DNA of 64,000 nt. Origin: Marinitoga aeolica (GTDB lineage Bacteria > Thermotogota > Thermotogae > Petrotogales > Petrotogaceae). Positions 27,062 to 54,738 of the stretch are shown here, piece by piece (position 1 is the stretch's first letter; each line of letters starts with the position of its first letter). The notes beneath the pieces are model-generated. The model made no database searches, was not told the DNA's origin, and saw only the letters and a program-made list of their open reading frames with translations. The translations under genes and the position numbers were made by a program. Location of the stretch: NCBI RefSeq assembly GCF_029910535.1, contig NZ_CP069362.1:1364001-1428000 (forward strand), read 5' to 3'.

Positions 27062-30000
27062 TTAAAAGTCTATTTCTACTGGAACTAATGTTGCGTATTT
27101 TTCTTGTGATGCATCATAACTTGATAATACTTTATGCTGATCATATCCTTCTGGAACTATAATATCAAGAACATATGGCCCGTAATCTCCTGCATCTGCC
27201 GGATATCCGCCTAATGTCCATTGTGTGTTTTCTGGTGTAACTGCTCTATAATGATCTGCTCCATATCCATCTTGAGATCCAACCATGAAATATGCATAAA
27301 TTTTGTTGCTTTTAATATCTAAGAATTTTTTCATTACAATAACAGTTATAATCTTTTCTCCTGGATCAGCTTCTACTTGAACACCTTCGGGTAGTTCTTG
27401 TTCATCAGAAGTGGCTAATAACTGACCGTAACTTGGCCATCCAGCAACCTTAATAAAGTAGTCCCAAGGATGTTTTGGATCAAATTGAACTCTAGCGCCA
27501 TCTTTATAAGTTTTAGTTAACCCGCCATCTTTTGTATCTAAATAAATATTAATTAATTGATGTGAGAATCCTTTAGGAGCACCCCATGGATTTGTCATTT
27601 CTCCAAACTTAAATTTAAATACTATGGAGTCATCATTATCATATACTTTAGCCCATTCTATATCCCATAAACCTTTATAAGGCTTAAATGCTCCATCTTT
27701 AGGATAAGTATATCCTCCAGGTCCATCTTCATCACCAATTGGATCTTCGAATGTTTTTATTAATCTTCCACCAATTTCTTTTGGTATCATAACATGTACT
27801 GGTCCAGTATTTGGAGCGAAGTCAACATCTCCGGAATTTCCTTTTTCAGTATATGCCATAACAACAGCTAAATTGAGTTCATCACCACTTTTAATGCTGA
27901 TTAAATCAAAAGGAATTTTGAATTCAACAATATTTCCTTTTGCTGCAATATATCCTGGAGTTTTCCCTGCAATCATCCACCTTTCTGTTCCACTGGCATT
28001 GTAGTAATATAAATCTTTAGAATTAGGATATTTTTGAAGATTGAAACTAAATCTTTTTGCTAGAGCAAAACCAAGATCTGTAATATTTTCTCCTGTTTTT
28101 GAGTATGCAGTTCTTGTATTTAGTTTTTTGGCATTTGGCATATCTGTATAGATTTCTAATTTATAAGGCTTTCCTGATAATTCATCAATAGATTTTTTAA
28201 GTTCTACAGCAACATAAATATTAGAGTTATCTCTTCCCACATAGAAACCAGAAATCAAGTCTCCTTCTTTATACATAACACCTGAATCATCATCGGCAAA
28301 ATAGGCACTTTTTGCCATTTCTTTGTCATCAACAACACCATCTAATGTTATTTCAACTTTTCCAATATTTCCTTTTGAAGCTGAAGAAGGTTTTTTATTT
28401 GCTATAAATAAATACCCAGGAATTTTATTTTCAGGAACTTTAGCTATTCTATATAATTGAATTAAAAGCTTTTTAAATTGCATATCGAATAATACTTCAT
28501 TTGGTCCCGCATCTTGATCTGATCCATACCACCAGAACCAATCACTACCTTCGGCGGCATATAAAACATCTAAAGCTTTTTTAAATTCTTCATCTGTTAA
28601 TTTATTTTTGTTTTCCATTAAAATCTTTCTTGCTTCAGATAGTCTTTCCCAGGCTTCATTTTCTTCTTTTTCTCCATACCATGTGTCTAAACTTCCGCCA
28701 ACCCATGAACCTTTAGGTAATTGATTCAATTCTCCCTTAACTTCATAACTTTCTATATATTCTTTTGGAGTAACTAATTCAACATATGGATCATTTGAAA
28801 GAGCTTGATAGAATAGTTTTCTAAAATCATTACCATTATTTGGATAATGTTCCCATGCATTTTCTCCATCTAAAGCTACTGTAACGACCATATCTCCTTC
28901 ATCATTTAACTTTTGTATATTATGTAATGCAGTAAGAAAATCTTTTACAGCATTTTCTTTTGTCATAATAGAATATTTAAATCCAATTCTATCAGAAAGA
29001 TCAGTATCTCTGAAAAATACAATAACACTTTTTCCATTTACTGTGACTTTATATGGTTTATATAATTTATGTGGATCTCCTGTGTTAACTCCCGCTTTTT
29101 GTAAAATTTGTTTATCTGTAATTATCCATTTTATACCATTATCTGCAAACATAGGAACTAAAGGAGTACTTACAGCTTGTTCAGATGGCCACATTCCTAC
29201 AGGTTTTTTACCAAATATTGATGTAAAATATTCTAATCCTCTTGTGATTTGTGCTTTTGCATCTTCTGGCCAACCCATATCTACTAATAATGGCAATATT
29301 GGATGATAATAAGGAGTTGTTGTTAATTCAACTTTTCCTTCATCCCATAATTTTTTATATTTATCTACAATTTCTGACATTAGTTTATATTGCACAGAAA
29401 TAACATATTTTAAATCTTCTTTTGTAAAATCTTTACCTTTTTCAGCTAAAGCTTTTAATTTTTTATCACTATTTATATAGTCAGCATTAATCCAATAAAG
29501 ATTCCATGAAACTTTTAAATCTAACCAATCTTGATCAGTAAATTTTTCATTTTTATCTCTTTTTTCCCTTAATTCTGCATATCTTGGGTGAGAATCAACA
29601 AATTGTGGATTTATATCAAAAAAATGCCATTTAACAAATTCTTTTTCTTCATCGGTTAATTTATCTTTTAAGGATAATTCTAAATATTTATCTTTTGCTC
29701 CGTTGTTTACATAGTCCATTAGTTGAATTAATAATACTGGAGTTATATTGAATGTAACACTTCCAGAGGTTAAGTATTTATCAACTAAATCAGCCATATA
29801 TGGATAATCATTTATAGCATGAGCTCTAACCCAAGGCATTTCTGCATTTAGATTACCAGGTATTTTATAAGAAGGTTGATGATGATGCCAAACAATAGCC
29901 ACTTTCAAAGGTTCTTTGTTGTCATCGCCTTTAGGAATTTTTGATAAAAAATTTTCTACAGCATTTTCTGTAATATTTTTAACTTCTGGAGCAGGTGCTG

Positions 30001-30835
30001 AATTTTCTGCTGAGGATTGAGGTGGAATATCTCTCCATGAAGCTACGGTATCTTCTTGGGTTTGTTCAGTATCTTCAACTATTACTACTCTGTTAGAGAT
30101 TTCTTCACCATTTTCGTCTTTTTCTACAGTATCCCAATTTCCTCTTGTATATTTATATTCTAATCTTTTTCCAACTTCAGTTTCTAATTTATAAGTAGCT
30201 TTATTTCCGTTTCTTTCCATGACGAGTTGTCCGGGGTCCCAATTGTTGAAATTACCAACTATAAAGATATTATCGGATTGTGGTGTATTTGAAGGTAACG
30301 TTACTACAAAAGTGACTATAGCTTTTTCACCAGGTTGAGCTTTTGTTTTTATTTCTGCTGGAATATCAGCCCAACTTGCTACAACATCTTCAATAGTTTT
30401 GTTTTCATCAGCTAAGGCCTTCCTATTAGCAATTTCCCCACCATTTTCGTCTTTTTCTACAGTACCCCAATCGCCTCTTGTATATTTATATTCTATTTCG
30501 GTTCCTTTTTCTACAGTTAATGTAACAGTTCCAGTATTTCCATCTCTTGATAAAATATAATTTTCATCACCAGGGTTCCAATCATTGAAAGAGCCTACTA
30601 TATAAACATTTTCATCAGTAGGTGTATTTGCTGGTAAAGTTACTTTAAATGTTAATGTGACTAAATTAGAACTACTGTCTGTAGGGACAGGTGTTTCTGA
30701 TGTTTCTGGAGTGACTTCGCTAACAGATGGAGTTTTTTCCATTACTTGCGCTTGTTGAGCACCACAACTAATTAAAAAAATAGATAATAATGTTACAATT
30801 GCTACAACAAAAAACTTAGAAAAACTTTTTCTCAT
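27062..30835 (-). CDS. Secreted lipoprotein GH57 amylase/amylopullulanase with two N-terminal starch-binding modules
   Basis: 1257 residues. Lipoprotein signal with LISC lipobox (Cys24); a Thr/Pro/Ser linker; two CBM20/CBM48-like modules (about 59-158 and 173-270), each with IVGSFNDWNPG or IVGNFNNWDPG and YKYTRG-W-TVEKDENG; a GH57 catalytic domain from WHHHQPSYK (residue 316) to about 800; and a C-terminal glucodextranase-C-like module (PF09985 type, about 1000-1250). The expected GH57 nucleophile is Glu552 in GMWPSEQAV and the acid/base Asp656 in VALDGENAWEHY. It should hydrolyse alpha-1,4 and possibly alpha-1,6 links of starch or pullulan outside the cell. Single-gene unit with its own promoter. 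Its starch modules resemble those in the lipoproteins at 50.5 kb. Confidence 0.92.
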   Translation of the reverse strand: MRKSFSKFFVVAIVTLLSIFLISCGAQQAQVMEKTPSVSEVTPETSETPVPTDSSSNLVTLTFKVTLPANTPTDENVYIVGSFNDWNPGDENYILSRDGNTGTVTLTVEKGTEIEYKYTRGDWGTVEKDENGGEIANRKALADENKTIEDVVASWADIPAEIKTKAQPGEKAIVTFVVTLPSNTPQSDNIFIVGNFNNWDPGQLVMERNGNKATYKLETEVGKRLEYKYTRGNWDTVEKDENGEEISNRVVIVEDTEQTQEDTVASWRDIPPQSSAENSAPAPEVKNITENAVENFLSKIPKGDDNKEPLKVAIVWHHHQPSYKIPGNLNAEMPWVRAHAINDYPYMADLVDKYLTSGSVTFNITPVLLIQLMDYVNNGAKDKYLELSLKDKLTDEEKEFVKWHFFDINPQFVDSHPRYAELREKRDKNEKFTDQDWLDLKVSWNLYWINADYINSDKKLKALAEKGKDFTKEDLKYVISVQYKLMSEIVDKYKKLWDEGKVELTTTPYYHPILPLLVDMGWPEDAKAQITRGLEYFTSIFGKKPVGMWPSEQAVSTPLVPMFADNGIKWIITDKQILQKAGVNTGDPHKLYKPYKVTVNGKSVIVFFRDTDLSDRIGFKYSIMTKENAVKDFLTALHNIQKLNDEGDMVVTVALDGENAWEHYPNNGNDFRKLFYQALSNDPYVELVTPKEYIESYEVKGELNQLPKGSWVGGSLDTWYGEKEENEAWERLSEARKILMENKNKLTDEEFKKALDVLYAAEGSDWFWWYGSDQDAGPNEVLFDMQFKKLLIQLYRIAKVPENKIPGYLFIANKKPSSASKGNIGKVEITLDGVVDDKEMAKSAYFADDDSGVMYKEGDLISGFYVGRDNSNIYVAVELKKSIDELSGKPYKLEIYTDMPNAKKLNTRTAYSKTGENITDLGFALAKRFSFNLQKYPNSKDLYYYNASGTERWMIAGKTPGYIAAKGNIVEFKIPFDLISIKSGDELNLAVVMAYTEKGNSGDVDFAPNTGPVHVMIPKEIGGRLIKTFEDPIGDEDGPGGYTYPKDGAFKPYKGLWDIEWAKVYDNDDSIVFKFKFGEMTNPWGAPKGFSHQLINIYLDTKDGGLTKTYKDGARVQFDPKHPWDYFIKVAGWPSYGQLLATSDEQELPEGVQVEADPGEKIITVIVMKKFLDIKSNKIYAYFMVGSQDGYGADHYRAVTPENTQWTLGGYPADAGDYGPYVLDIIVPEGYDQHKVLSSYDASQEKYATLVPVEIDF

Positions 30836-49465: not shown

Positions 49466-50398
49466 ATGAATAGAAAAAGAGATGTATACTATTGGCAGGA
49501 AAGAAGTATATTAAAATATTTAAAAGAGGAATGGATAGAACATGCTGTATTCAAAATTGATTCAAATGGAGTAGAAGGTATTGGTGCAGGGACACCTAAT
49601 CCTGATTATGGAGAAACATATAAAACTACAATGGCTATAATTGAAAAGTTAAGAAAGTTGACAGAAGAATGGAAGAATTTAAATGATTATGCTGAATTTG
49701 AAAGAGAGATGGACAATATAGTAAAATTTGATATGTCATCAAAGACAGCTGTAGAAATTGCAATTGCTGATTATATATTAAACGCAAAAGAACTAGATTT
49801 ATCGAAAATATTATTTTCTGAATCAGGTGAAAATCAAGAAATGAAAAAAATATATGTTCATAAGGATATGGGATATGCCATTTATGAAGAAATTTATGAT
49901 GCTTCCACCATAAAAATAGAATTTTTAGAAAAAATAAATTTAGAAGAGTTAGAAATATTGCGAGCAAATATAGAAAAATATAATGTTTGGATAGATTTTA
50001 AAGGATTATTTAATCATTATGAAGTAAGGAAAATATTGAATATTTTTGAAGGAATAAATATAATTGCTATTGAACAGCCTTTGCCTGTTGGAAGTGAGTT
50101 TGCAGCAAAAGATTTGTTAATGAAATATCCAATTTTTTGGGATGAATCATTTAAAAACGTTCATGATATTTTAAAACTAAAGAATATATCAACAGGATTA
50201 GTTTTTGAATTAACAAAATTTGGTGGATTGTTAAAAACATCAGAGTATTTAAAATTGGCAAGAAGAATAGGATTAGAAACAATGATTTCTTCAAGAATAG
50301 AACATCCAATTACTTTAAAATGGGCAAAAAAGATAAAAAACTCTTTTAATTATATAGATCTTGATTATGAACATTATATAGAAAAAACTTCTAAATAA
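49466..50398 (+). CDS. Enolase-superfamily protein, dipeptide epimerase-like, active site altered
   Basis: 310 residues against about 345 for typical L-Ala-D/L-Glu epimerases. It aligns by eye with that group: metal-ligand strands WIDFKG, AIEQPL and FWDESF are kept. The KxK catalytic strand reads TIK (first Lys replaced), the usual VDAN Asn is Lys, and the second catalytic Lys (NIKLMKSGG type) is Glu (VFELTKFGG). The C-terminal segment is short. It may have a changed reaction or be an inactive paralogue. AGGAGG precedes the ATG at 49466. The 78-base gap to the divergent siaA must hold both promoters. Confidence 0.65.
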   Translation: MNRKRDVYYWQERSILKYLKEEWIEHAVFKIDSNGVEGIGAGTPNPDYGETYKTTMAIIEKLRKLTEEWKNLNDYAEFEREMDNIVKFDMSSKTAVEIAIADYILNAKELDLSKILFSESGENQEMKKIYVHKDMGYAIYEEIYDASTIKIEFLEKINLEELEILRANIEKYNVWIDFKGLFNHYEVRKILNIFEGINIIAIEQPLPVGSEFAAKDLLMKYPIFWDESFKNVHDILKLKNISTGLVFELTKFGGLLKTSEYLKLARRIGLETMISSRIEHPITLKWAKKIKNSFNYIDLDYEHYIEKTSK

Positions 50399-50428
50399 GG
50401 AATCTGGAGGATTCCTTATTTTTTTTAC
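50393..50428 (+). terminator. Terminator of the enolase-superfamily gene
   Basis: AAATAAGGAATC (50393-50404) pairs with GATTCCTTATTT (50410-50421) around TGGAG, followed by a T-run. The stop codon is inside the stem. The next 150 bases to 50577 are AT-rich with a TATAAT near 50522 but no convincing -35. Confidence 0.9.
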
Positions 50429-50577
50429 AATTTTTATTGTTAATAATGTATAAACAATAATAATCGATATTAATAATTTGTAATAATCAAAAATCATTTT
50501 TCTTTCAAAAGAGTGAAGGAGTATAATATTATTGCAACAAAAATATAACATCTATTACATCTATAGGAGGGGTGTGT

Positions 50578-51312
50578 ATGAGAAAATATTGGATATTTTT
50601 TATGTTGATTGCAGTTTTATCTTTTGCATTAGTAGGATGTGTAAAACCTAAAGTTGAAGAACAACCTGAACCTATTATGTTAAAAGTAGAATTACCAGAT
50701 AGTTTACCTTCAACTATAACAAGTGTTTATATGGTAGGGAATTTTAATAATTGGACATTTTCTGATGATTATGTATATGATGTGGTTACAGAAAATGGGA
50801 AAAAGATGGTTAATGTTGAGTTAAATTGGGATAATTTAGAATATCCAATTCAGTTTAAATTCTCTGATCAAATGGACTGGGCAGGTGTAGAAAAAGGTCC
50901 TAATGGAGAAGAATTAACTAATAGAGTTATTTTTGAAAAACCAGTTGAATCAAAGAATTTAAGAATTTGGAATTTTGCAGATACTTCTATAGATTATTCT
51001 TCTATGTCTACACCTGTTACAGTTAAATTTGTAGTTGAAGTTCCAGAAAATACACCTGAAGCATCAGGAGTATATATTAGAGGAGATTTAATAAATTCTT
51101 CCTGGGATGGAACACCTTTGACACTAAATAATGGAAAATATGAAGTTACTTTAACTCTTAATTCTTATGAATTATATCAATATAAGTATGTTTTAGATAA
51201 TGATTGGGCACATGTAGAATTGATGCCTGATGGTACAAATGATATACCAAATAGATGGATTGTTGTAACTGATAATGAAACTATAGTTAATAAAGTTCAT
51301 GCTTGGAAATAA
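50578..51312 (+). CDS. Starch-binding lipoprotein with two CBM20/48-like modules
   Basis: 244 residues from the ATG at 50578 with AGGAGGGG upstream. Lipobox VGC (Cys about 21) after a typical signal. Two carbohydrate-binding modules: about 30-130 (VYMVGNFNNWTFSDDY, FKFSDQMDWAGVEKGPNGEE, LTNRVIF) and about 145-240 (VYIRGDLINSSWDGTPL, QYKYVLDNDWAHVEL, IPNRWIVV). They share layout with the twin modules of the GH57 amylase (VGSFNDWNP, TVEKDENG, NR). No catalytic domain. It should capture starch or maltodextrin at the membrane or toga. First gene of a four-gene envelope operon. Confidence 0.82.
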   Translation: MRKYWIFFMLIAVLSFALVGCVKPKVEEQPEPIMLKVELPDSLPSTITSVYMVGNFNNWTFSDDYVYDVVTENGKKMVNVELNWDNLEYPIQFKFSDQMDWAGVEKGPNGEELTNRVIFEKPVESKNLRIWNFADTSIDYSSMSTPVTVKFVVEVPENTPEASGVYIRGDLINSSWDGTPLTLNNGKYEVTLTLNSYELYQYKYVLDNDWAHVELMPDGTNDIPNRWIVVTDNETIVNKVHAWK

Positions 51313-51318
51313 TTAAGT

Positions 51319-51339
51319 AGCCCCTTTTGGGGCTTTTTT
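51319..51339 (+). terminator. Terminator or attenuator inside the starch-binding operon
   Basis: AGCCCC-TTTT-GGGGCT followed by TTTTTT, between the first and second genes. Probably lets the abundant first lipoprotein be made in excess over the barrel proteins. Confidence 0.85.
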
Positions 51340-51356
51340 AATAGGAGGTGGTGTTT

Positions 51357-52088
51357 TTGAAAAAGATTGTATTATTAATCTTAATAATTTCTTCAGTGTT
51401 CATTTTTTCTGGATGTTTAATGAAATTGTTAAATCTTTCTGTTCCAGAAGGTATATATGTAGGATATGATGGAAATAATTGGCTGCAAACAGATGATAAA
51501 GGTATTATCGAAAATAGTAAATTTGTATATGATGATAATTTAAAATTATATAAAGTTACAATAGATGCTTCTAAAATCAATTTTAATGAAATAGATAATG
51601 ATGGTAGTAAATTTTATATAGGTTATTATAAAGTATTTAATGTAAAAAGCGATGGGAACATAGTTTCTGACTCTATTCCTATTTTGAAATCTGCTTTGTC
51701 AAACAATCAAATAACAGTTTATTTAGATATAGATAAACTTGTTAATGGTAAAGCAATTGGTATTGGCGATGATACAAAATTAAATATGAATTGGTATGCT
51801 GCTGGAACTTTCAATAATTGGTCTCCTGAATTGATGAATAAAGTTAATAATCATTTTGAAATAGAAATAGATAATGCGTATAATAAAGGAGATAATATAG
51901 AATATAAGATCCCAGCTTCAAATAATTGGAAACCATGGCAGATGATATTTAACAGTGAAGTGTATTCAGATTCATCTCAAAATCAAATATATACCTTTAA
52001 AAATAATGTGACAGGTTTTAAAATTAAATTTTATCCTTTAATCAGTTATGTTGAAATTGAAGAATTAAAGGCTGGTGATTCACAATGA
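51357..52088 (+). CDS. Lipoprotein with C-terminal starch-binding-like module
   Basis: 243 residues from a TTG at 51357, the only start well spaced from AGGAGG (51343-51348). Signal with SGC lipobox (Cys about 20). The region from about 140 (NWYAAGTFNNWSPELMNKVN, YKIPASNNWKPWQMIFNSE) resembles the CBM modules in the neighbouring genes; the first part (GIYVGYDGNNWLQTDDKGII) may be a second degenerate module. The last codons overlap the downstream barrel gene by four bases (ATGA). Confidence 0.75.
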   Translation: MKKIVLLILIISSVFIFSGCLMKLLNLSVPEGIYVGYDGNNWLQTDDKGIIENSKFVYDDNLKLYKVTIDASKINFNEIDNDGSKFYIGYYKVFNVKSDGNIVSDSIPILKSALSNNQITVYLDIDKLVNGKAIGIGDDTKLNMNWYAAGTFNNWSPELMNKVNNHFEIEIDNAYNKGDNIEYKIPASNNWKPWQMIFNSEVYSDSSQNQIYTFKNNVTGFKIKFYPLISYVEIEELKAGDSQ

Positions 52089-53461
52089 AAAAAATCTTTT
52101 TGTTTTTAATTTTACTAATTTCAATATTTGTTTTTTCCGATATTCAGATCAATGGTAATTTAGAAACATCGTGGACTTATACATTAGAATCATCACCTGC
52201 TCAATTTTATTACAATGGATTAAAATTAGATTTGTATGTTAAACCAAATGATTCAAATTTTTCTGGAGAGTTAAACCTTAACAAAGGCAATGATGATAAA
52301 TATTATATAACAGATGGTGAGTTTAATTTTAAATTCGATACAAGTCAAGTAAAAACTTTATGGAAAAAGAAAAGCGTAAATACTACAGATTGGATAAATG
52401 CTTTTAATAATGAAAAAATTGGAACTGTTGATGGAATCATATATAGTTTTGATTTACCAATACTACATGCTGAAAATTATTTGGTCAAAAAAGATGGAGG
52501 TTCTTCTTCGATTTTTATATCTCATATAAGAGGTATTCCTTTAGGAAATTTCTATTATAGTTATATATATTCAAGAGAATTTTTTACAAAGTATATTTAT
52601 TCAGATTGGAGATTATTTGATTTTAACTTGAATTTAGGAAATAATCAATTATTTGGAGAATTTGGATATTCATATGATAAAGGTGAGAATTATCTGGATA
52701 ATAATTATCTTATCTTTGCAGGAAATAAAATGAACTTAGGTAAAATTCAAAATTCTTTATACATAAAATATCTATCTTCAGGTTATAAAAAAGATTATTT
52801 GCCAGATAGTTTTTCACAAAATATTAGAGATGAATTTAACATTGATAAATTAGGAATTACATTAGAAGGAGATTATCATTTTAAAGATGATAACTTTTCT
52901 AATTTTTCATTAGATTATTTAAAAAGCTACTTTTCATTAAATAATTATAATTATGTATATATAGGAATGCCTTTTGAGAATAATAAGTATAATATAGATA
53001 ATATTGAATTTTCTGTGAATGTTCCATTGAATTTACCTGTTATAGGTAATGCGAATTTTTCGGTGTATAAATATGGATTAGAAGATAATTGGAAGAATAT
53101 AAAAAAGTATAAATCATTTTCTATTTCATCTAATGTAAATGGAAATATGTTTGGATATTATTATAATTTATCTTATATTTTTGGAAACAATGCAGTGAAT
53201 ATAGAAAATTCTACTGTTTATAGTGGAGGTTTTTCTGAAGTTTTATATGGGACATTATCAAAATCATTTGGTAATTTAAACATATTTGGAAAAGGTATGT
53301 ATATATATGGTGTAATAGAAAGGTATAAAACAATGTATTTAGAAGCGAAGTATACAGGTTTTTCTAATATGGAGTTATTACTAAGTCTGGGTGATGGTAA
53401 TTTTGGTGCTTCAAAAGAGTTTAAGAAACAATTATCTTTAACTGTTAAAACAGGATTTTAG
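52085..53461 (+). CDS. Outer-membrane (toga) beta-barrel protein, porin-like
   Basis: 458 residues. A signal peptide (MKKIFLFLILLISIFVFS) and then many amphipathic beta strands rich in Tyr, Phe and Asn with alternating polarity. The last residue is Phe in SLTVKTGF, the usual C-terminal signature of barrel proteins. No helices and no catalytic motif. It is cotranslated with the starch-binding lipoprotein (four-base overlap), so a maltodextrin channel is the natural guess. No sequence family is recognised. Confidence 0.7.
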   Translation: MKKIFLFLILLISIFVFSDIQINGNLETSWTYTLESSPAQFYYNGLKLDLYVKPNDSNFSGELNLNKGNDDKYYITDGEFNFKFDTSQVKTLWKKKSVNTTDWINAFNNEKIGTVDGIIYSFDLPILHAENYLVKKDGGSSSIFISHIRGIPLGNFYYSYIYSREFFTKYIYSDWRLFDFNLNLGNNQLFGEFGYSYDKGENYLDNNYLIFAGNKMNLGKIQNSLYIKYLSSGYKKDYLPDSFSQNIRDEFNIDKLGITLEGDYHFKDDNFSNFSLDYLKSYFSLNNYNYVYIGMPFENNKYNIDNIEFSVNVPLNLPVIGNANFSVYKYGLEDNWKNIKKYKSFSISSNVNGNMFGYYYNLSYIFGNNAVNIENSTVYSGGFSEVLYGTLSKSFGNLNIFGKGMYIYGVIERYKTMYLEAKYTGFSNMELLLSLGDGNFGASKEFKKQLSLTVKTGF

Positions 53462-53472
53462 GAGGTGTGTGT

Positions 53473-54708
53473 ATGAAAAAAATATTATTGATATATCTTA
53501 TAGTAGTTTTATCTATTATGTCTTTTTCAAAGGTTTATGTGTATAAAAATAATGTAGTTTTTGAATTTAAAGATCTTACAGCATCAAAAGTTTTTTTAGC
53601 AGGTTCTTTTAATAATTGGGATCCAACAGCACAACCTATGAAAAAAGTTAAAGGTGGATTGTGGAGGGTTGTATTAAGATTGACTCCTGGAGATTATCAA
53701 TATAAGTTTGTAATTAATGGTACAGATTGGAAAGAAGATCCAGAAGCTCCTGATTATGTTCCTGATGGATATGGTGGAAAGAATGGAGCATTTTCATTGG
53801 TTTTAGAAAATGGAAAATTAAAGATAAAAAAACCAGAAAAACAAGAAAGTGGTATATTAAGTGGTAAATATTCATTTGATTTAAAATCCAAAGTGAATAT
53901 GGATACATATTCTTTTAAATCTCCAGAAATATCCCATAATTTTTATTTAACTATTAACCCTAAAAAATCTGGTATGAATTTTGAAGCTGTTTTAAATGCA
54001 GACAACTCTAATTGGCAGTTAGGAATATCATCTATAAAGGCTACGTGGGAAAATTCGAACTTTATTTTTGGAGTTTTTAAGGATATTCAAGCTAACAAGT
54101 TGCTTAATTTTAGTGAAAGAGTAGAAGAAAATAAAATAGGTTTTTTTGGTATTTTAAAAGTTGGAGATTTAAAAACAGGAGTGGATATTTATTCTCAGGA
54201 TAATGAATTAAAATATTTTGTTTCATCAAATATTTATTTAAGTAATATTTTACTCAGTGCATTATATATGCCAAAAACTCAAGATGCTTCTATGAATATA
54301 TATTCTAGAATAGAGGGGTTTGGTATTGGTGTAGAAGCAAAGTATTCAGATAAAATTGAATATGTTAAAGGTGATTATAATAGCGAAATTTTGGCTTTAG
54401 AAGGAACTTATGATTTTGTTAATAAAAATATAATTTTTGGTGGAAACTATGATGATATAATAACTTTCTCTGGAGAGTATTCTTTAGAAAATAATGTATA
54501 TAATATTGAGTCTGATTTACTTTTTAGTATAAAATCAGGATTTAATGTTTTGATTGATGCTTATTATGATAATACTAATAACTTTGGATATAAATTAGGT
54601 ATGGAATTGAATAAAGATAATATAGATTTAAAATTAAAAATAGGAAATGATTTTTCTGGAGATTTTGATGACTATTATCTGTTTATTGCGTCATCAGCGA
54701 TATTTTAA
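53473..54708 (+). CDS. Fusion of a CBM48-like glycogen/starch-binding module with a beta-barrel
   Basis: 411 residues from the ATG at 53473 (GGAGG upstream; an in-frame GTG at 53467 overlaps the site). Signal peptide about 1-18, then a CBM48/AMPK-type module at about 20-115 (FEFKDLTASKVFLAGSFNNW, GLWRVVLRLTPGDYQYKFVI, NGTDWKEDPEAPDY), a short Lys-rich linker (KIKKPEKQESG) and a C-terminal part of about 280 residues of alternating amphipathic strands ending in Phe (IASSAIF). This combination suggests a barrel that displays a polysaccharide-binding head on one face of the toga. Last gene of the operon. Confidence 0.72.
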   Translation: MKKILLIYLIVVLSIMSFSKVYVYKNNVVFEFKDLTASKVFLAGSFNNWDPTAQPMKKVKGGLWRVVLRLTPGDYQYKFVINGTDWKEDPEAPDYVPDGYGGKNGAFSLVLENGKLKIKKPEKQESGILSGKYSFDLKSKVNMDTYSFKSPEISHNFYLTINPKKSGMNFEAVLNADNSNWQLGISSIKATWENSNFIFGVFKDIQANKLLNFSERVEENKIGFFGILKVGDLKTGVDIYSQDNELKYFVSSNIYLSNILLSALYMPKTQDASMNIYSRIEGFGIGVEAKYSDKIEYVKGDYNSEILALEGTYDFVNKNIIFGGNYDDIITFSGEYSLENNVYNIESDLLFSIKSGFNVLIDAYYDNTNNFGYKLGMELNKDNIDLKLKIGNDFSGDFDDYYLFIASSAIF

Positions 54709-54711
54709 TAT

Positions 54712-54738
54712 AAAAATCCTCCTTCGGGAGGATTTTTT
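54712..54738 (+). terminator. Terminator of the starch-binding operon
   Basis: AAAAATCCTCC-TTCG-GGAGGATTTTTT: 11-bp stem with a UUCG tetraloop and T-run. Confidence 0.93.

Follow-up and report, generated by a model that had tools for sequence, protein, structure and literature searches.

A conserved operon of glucan-binding-type lipoproteins and predicted outer-membrane barrels as a candidate starch uptake module of the Thermotogota toga

Results

Gene Layout and Transcription Signals

The window (the whole 64,000-nucleotide stretch of DNA that was analysed) lies within a complete 2.44-Mb genome close to Marinitoga. Positions 50,578-54,708 are filled by four open reading frames on the forward (+) strand, here termed LP1, LP2, BAR and CBB. 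LP1 (50578..51312, with an alternative GTG start at 50572) encodes a lipoprotein with two CBM48-type modules, the core matches of which lie at ~50716-50844 and ~51052-51213. LP2 (51348..52088), the first of three core genes, encodes a lipoprotein with a CBM48-like module in its second half (~51789-52028) and overlaps by 4 bases with BAR (52085..53461), which codes for a predicted porin-like outer-membrane beta-barrel with a C-terminal Phe. CBB (53467/53473..54708) encodes a signal peptide, a CBM48/AMPK-type head (53554-53835) and a tail with barrel-like sequence and a C-terminal Phe (53848-54705); of its two possible starts, the ATG at 53473 is likelier than 53467. An earlier note on this DNA had described a four-gene run of lipoprotein, lipoprotein, barrel and CBM48-headed fusion, and the genes are indeed present in that order on one strand. 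The nearest named relative is Marinitoga lauensis, with 70% identity in CBB. A GH57 amylase-like lipoprotein (lipobox LISC) is encoded on the reverse (-) strand of the window at 27062..30835 and has at its N-terminus a pair of CBM48/CBM20-type modules that are related to the LP1 modules.

A terminator-like hairpin (50393..50421, +) divides the operon from an upstream racemase-like gene, and an intrinsic-terminator-like hairpin (54712..54738, +) marks its end. Within the operon, the gap between LP1 and LP2 holds a GC-rich hairpin followed by a T-run (51319..51334, +). The corresponding gap contained hairpins in most of the relatives that were folded, several of them with T-runs. Judging from this recurrence, the upstream lipoprotein may be produced at a higher level than the barrels, and the hairpin could possibly act as an expression step-down or an attenuator. 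A stable hairpin recurred between the upstream lipoprotein and LP2 at loci L098-L102, L103, L105, L106, L091 and L093, with differing sequences.

CBM48-Type Modules in LP1, LP2 and CBB

Both lipoproteins have signal peptides with lipoboxes (ALVGC in LP1, IFSGC in LP2), and the lipobox Cys of LP2 is invariant across 14 homologues. LP1 scored above the curated Pfam cut-off for AMPK1_CBM (27.3 bits against 26.8), and with an HMM made from 27 CBB modules it showed two modules (E 8.8e-10), as did the window's GH57 amylase (E 7e-12). Direct alignment of LP1 with this amylase (E 4.5e-16, 32% identity) confirmed the earlier proposal that the binding modules are akin to the ones in the secreted GH57 enzyme encoded at 27-31 kb. 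LP2 itself had no Pfam family over the cut-off; its family profile, compared with the CBM48 modules, matched them over the second half of the protein (93.5%, E 2e-7). The first LP2 module was seen in homologues only, several of which have two modules with the CBB-module HMM. The two modules expected in LP1 were recovered with the HMM, and of the one or two expected in LP2 one is clear.

The CBB head exceeded the Pfam cut-offs for both AMPK1_CBM (43.6 bits; cut-off 26.8) and CBM48 (36.6 bits; cut-off 22.4). The CBM48 fold anticipated for the head, a beta-sandwich, was borne out by modelling, with the model superposing on the glycogen-binding domain of AMPK beta1 (TM 0.85, 2.0 A). VIA, which covered the head only, matched the CBB model to CBM48 proteins at Z 10-13. 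In AMPK, cyclodextrin is held by Trp100, Lys126, Trp133 and Asn150 (PMC9788615). The counterparts in CBB are W51, K80, W88 and N106, the first three equivalences being read from the alignment and the fourth from the GGKN motif just after it. Each of these residues is invariant in 27/27 CBB module copies. From these sequence features we infer that the modules of LP1, LP2 and CBB bind glucans.

Barrel Predictions for BAR and the CBB Tail

BAR and CBB both carry signal peptides. A C-terminal Phe or Trp was present in 18/18 BAR homologues and a C-terminal Phe in 16/16 homologues of the CBB tail, compared to a Phe or Trp end in 11.5% of background proteins. Alternating amphipathic sequence was in excess in both BAR and the CBB tail when set against 218 further proteins encoded at these loci (p ~2e-11 each); the background contains a few unlisted CBB homologues, which makes the test conservative, and the p-values count related sequences as independent, which overstates the evidence. 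AlphaFold runs on 5-6 sequences, drawn from loci other than the whole-genome ones, gave models of low confidence, with a mean pLDDT of 44 for BAR and 49 for CBB. The PDB matches listed by Foldseek for the low-confidence BAR model were outer-membrane barrels, with 16-stranded porins first, and the VIA matches listed for the same model were outer-membrane barrel proteins (Z 9.6-11.3). Porin Pfam families, maltoporin LamB included, gave no match up to E 1 among 18 BAR and 16 tail sequences, and no Pfam outer-membrane family, indeed no Pfam family at all, covers BAR or the CBB tail. No solved structure was sequence-related to BAR (best E 0.25). Homology between the CBB tail and BAR was not supported (hhalign 22%).

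BAR is very likely a porin-like barrel, and the CBB tail is probably a barrel as well. The barrel folds proposed earlier gain from the C-terminal aromatics, the amphipathic alternation and the outer-membrane barrel matches of BAR, but stay predictions, which the low-confidence models support without settling the matter.

Conservation in Thermotogota

BAR was found in 33 of the 103 Thermotogota genomes searched, and the order LP2-BAR-CBB was kept in 33/33. These 33 genomes fall into three families (f1, f9 and f10). The three-gene core LP2-BAR-CBB is conserved, and its constant order rules out a chance grouping of genes. The four-gene layout, in contrast, varies. Four other Marinitoga loci have a ~640-aa lipoprotein in the position of LP1, and a 443-aa lipoprotein stands at its place in a T. 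maritima-like genome, so that the expected conservation of operon order in relatives applies to the core and not to LP1. The CBB proteins of f9 and f10 have three CBM48 modules ahead of the tail, whereas the CBB of the window has one. In Marinitoga lauensis (L113:4115-6989) LP1 and BAR are each in two frames, possibly through sequencing indels or as pseudogenes. A contig filed under Planctomycetota (L118:6881-7741) carries a gene nearest to the CBB of Fervidobacterium and is probably mis-binned.

Starch Genes Around the Operon

The T. maritima-like genome, which we take to be strain MSB8, has the gene order GH13 amylase lipoprotein, 443-aa lipoprotein, LP2, BAR, CBB and pullulanase. The core here is TM1842-TM1844, located between AmyA (TM1840) and the pullulanase (TM1845), with numbers given from the order of the open reading frames against PMC2246101. 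The divergent genes at this locus are taken to encode a maltose ABC transporter, an assignment made from the published mal2 gene list. TM1841-TM1844 have already been published among the genes of mal2, with no functions given (PMC2246101), and no description of the function of their products was found in the literature searched. Neither CBM48-barrel fusions nor BAR-type porins were described in the same literature, and no maltodextrin regulator is given in the Thermotoga regulon paper. The earlier remark that no toga capture system of such a layout was known to have been described holds for a published function in the literature searched and needs correcting for the genes, since TM1841-TM1844 were already listed in mal2.

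Of 18 Thermotogota loci of 15-20 kb, 8 have a GH13 amylase gene immediately upstream (split between two frames at one locus), and CBB adjoins a GH57 amylase gene in two short contigs. In relatives the operon thus has amylase and pullulanase genes as neighbours, which links it to starch, and a starch role of the operon is well supported. The Marinitoga operon is without an enzyme gene, and in this genome, as in three relatives, the GH57 lipoprotein lies ~20 kb off. The Marinitoga genome G043 encodes the GH57 amylase and lacks the operon, and the operon is therefore not needed for having the enzyme. The GH57 lipoprotein would be a putative functional partner of the operon.

Several further proteins were noted. 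The source genome encodes a second exported alpha-glucanase, a GH13 enzyme with an N-terminal CBM48 (G000:C1:1919058-1921051; L199:8057-10051), and a GH13/CBM48 alpha-glucanase also occurs in the operon-less Marinitoga genome (L203). A 405-aa lipoprotein encoded far from the operon in the source genome (L200:7050-8267) has an N-terminal module like those of LP1 and the GH57 amylase. In two Thermotoga-type genomes (L089:15249-16991 and L090:14454-16196) the pullulanase gene is followed by one for an exported 580-aa WD40-repeat protein, which is unusual for a bacterium.

CBM48-Headed Proteins in Other Phyla

Relatives of CBB in named genomes were found at 28 non-Thermotogota loci, with a CBM48 head and a ~200-650-aa tail ending in Phe. 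A GH57 or GH13 gene was present on the same DNA piece in 20 of these 28, a pairing that is biased, since the CBM48 of the amylase itself led the search to some of the loci. Exported CBM48-headed proteins with long Phe-ending tails were observed at L122, L124, L126, L135, L140, L141, L146, L149, L173, L179 and others; such loci come from several phyla, Eisenbacteria, Cloacimonadota and Zixibacteria among them, and GH57/GH13 genes and genes for small CBM48-only proteins are frequent neighbours.

The tails of two large groups, Eisenbacteria-like and Cloacimonadota-like, form one family (hhalign 100%, E 5e-42) that is absent from Pfam. Homology of the Thermotogota CBB tail to the tails of other phyla was not supported (hhalign 30% and 0.7%). 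If both tail families, which have no detectable relation to each other, are barrels, as their sequence pattern hints, the fusion would have arisen twice. A broader and tentative proposal, which we hold to be doubtful at present, is that CBM48-headed barrels represent a general TonB-independent mode of alpha-glucan import in diderms with two or more separate origins, one in Thermotogota and another, with an unrelated tail family, in Eisenbacteria, Cloacimonadota, Zixibacteria and similar phyla. In this proposal the head would be a periplasmic acceptor pulling in maltodextrins via the pore.

Discussion

Proposed Role of the Operon and Alternatives

The passage of sugars across the toga of Thermotogota is poorly known, and few toga proteins are established (PMC3387000). 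The operon provides named, conserved candidates for a starch route in a model hyperthermophile. We consider it likely that it encodes a TonB-independent module for the uptake of starch and maltodextrins across the Thermotogota outer membrane (toga), with the CBB head most likely periplasmic. Alpha-glucan would be cut by a lipid-anchored amylase, an AmyA-type GH13 enzyme in relatives and probably the GH57 lipoprotein here, while LP1 and LP2 would retain the polymer at the envelope via their CBM48-type modules. The resulting maltodextrins could diffuse through BAR, and probably also through the barrel of the CBB tail, at the exit of which the CBB head would take up glucans and keep them near the maltose-binding protein and the ABC transporter. 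Glucan binding, the barrel folds, the membrane side of each part and transport itself are the points at which this scheme goes beyond the domain content, lipoboxes, gene order, neighbouring starch genes and ligand residues observed. Weighing against it are the low confidence of the barrel models, the enzyme-free operon of Marinitoga and the G043 genome with its amylase but no operon.

The side of the membrane on which the CBB head lies separates this scheme from its closest competitor. In outer-membrane barrels, N-terminal domains normally lie in the periplasm, as in BamA and BcsC, and the CBB head is probably periplasmic for this reason. It may accept sugars on the inner side of the toga instead of trapping starch on the outside. 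Of the earlier reading, lipoproteins of glucan-binding type and porin-like proteins in one conserved operon are supported; the point overlooked was topology, as the CBB head may be turned inward. A version in which the CBB head and both lipoproteins all lie outside as starch adhesins around the pore, close to SusD/E/F around SusC, would suit the three head modules of the f9 and f10 homologues, which would be expected for grabbing a polymer. It would also suit AmyA, an established toga protein associated with the outer envelope (PMC3387000). We judge this arrangement unlikely given the usual periplasmic placement of such N-terminal domains, the coiled coils of ScrY and DcaP included.

The second alternative concerns fold rather than topology. 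BAR and the CBB tail could be soluble, beta-rich glucan-binding surface proteins of a beta-sandwich or solenoid type, a reading left room by the low-confidence models and by the lack of a Pfam outer-membrane family for either protein. Set against it are the Phe or Trp end of every aligned homologue, far above background, the amphipathic alternation and the outer-membrane barrels among the Foldseek and VIA matches listed for BAR, which together make it quite improbable. Least probable of all is a structural or anchoring role, in which the operon would act on glucan of the cell itself or in the architecture of the toga and not in feeding on external starch: the Thermotogota envelope is unusual, with mostly unassigned proteins, and the Marinitoga operon is without an enzyme gene, but secreted amylase and pullulanase genes are closely linked in relatives and the operon is absent from 70 of the 103 Thermotogota genomes, unlike a structural toga component.

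Comparison With Known Systems

The proposed uptake module resembles the Bacteroides Sus system (SusC/D/E/F/G) by analogy, with a common layout of glucan-binding lipoproteins, an outer-membrane pore and a lipid-anchored amylase. LP1 and LP2 bring lipoboxes and CBM48-type modules into the operon and are unrelated to SusD. The TonB-dependent receptor barrel PF00593 had 0 matches in the complete genome (E. coli, Caulobacter and Bacteroides controls were positive), as did SusD PF07980 (Bacteroides control positive), which rules out membership in the TonB-type Sus family. A parallel in concept with no TonB-type receptor, as the earlier note had put it, is an accurate description. In contrast to Bacteroides Sus, the system of the window combines CBM48-type modules with porin-like barrels and has neither a TonB receptor nor SusD, which suggests that Sus-like glucan capture and uptake evolved with porins in place of TonB receptors.

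The closest counterpart is T. maritima mal2 (TM1840-TM1845), which has the homologous LP2-BAR-CBB in the same order and a glucan-related lipoprotein upstream. It differs in being flanked by AmyA and the pullulanase and in the three modules of its CBB, whereas the window has a single CBB module, another LP1 and no enzyme gene in the operon. The CBB head has its fold and ligand residues in common with the glycogen-binding domain of AMPK beta and CBM48, but CBB is exported and carries the head on an outer-membrane-type tail rather than in a kinase subunit or glycoside hydrolase. The ScrY and DcaP porins have a periplasmic N-terminal domain on an outer-membrane pore, a soluble-domain-plus-pore arrangement that CBB would share, and a sugar-slide role has been proposed for ScrY, the nearest precedent for a periplasmic CBB head. 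That domain is a coiled coil in ScrY and DcaP and a CBM48 in CBB, with no detectable sequence relation. The BAR and CBB homologues TM1843 and TM1844 are not among the six porin candidates published for T. maritima (PMC3387000). The OmpB porin of the toga (TM0476) is a Thermotogota outer-membrane barrel with a C-terminal Phe, a feature it has in common with BAR and CBB.
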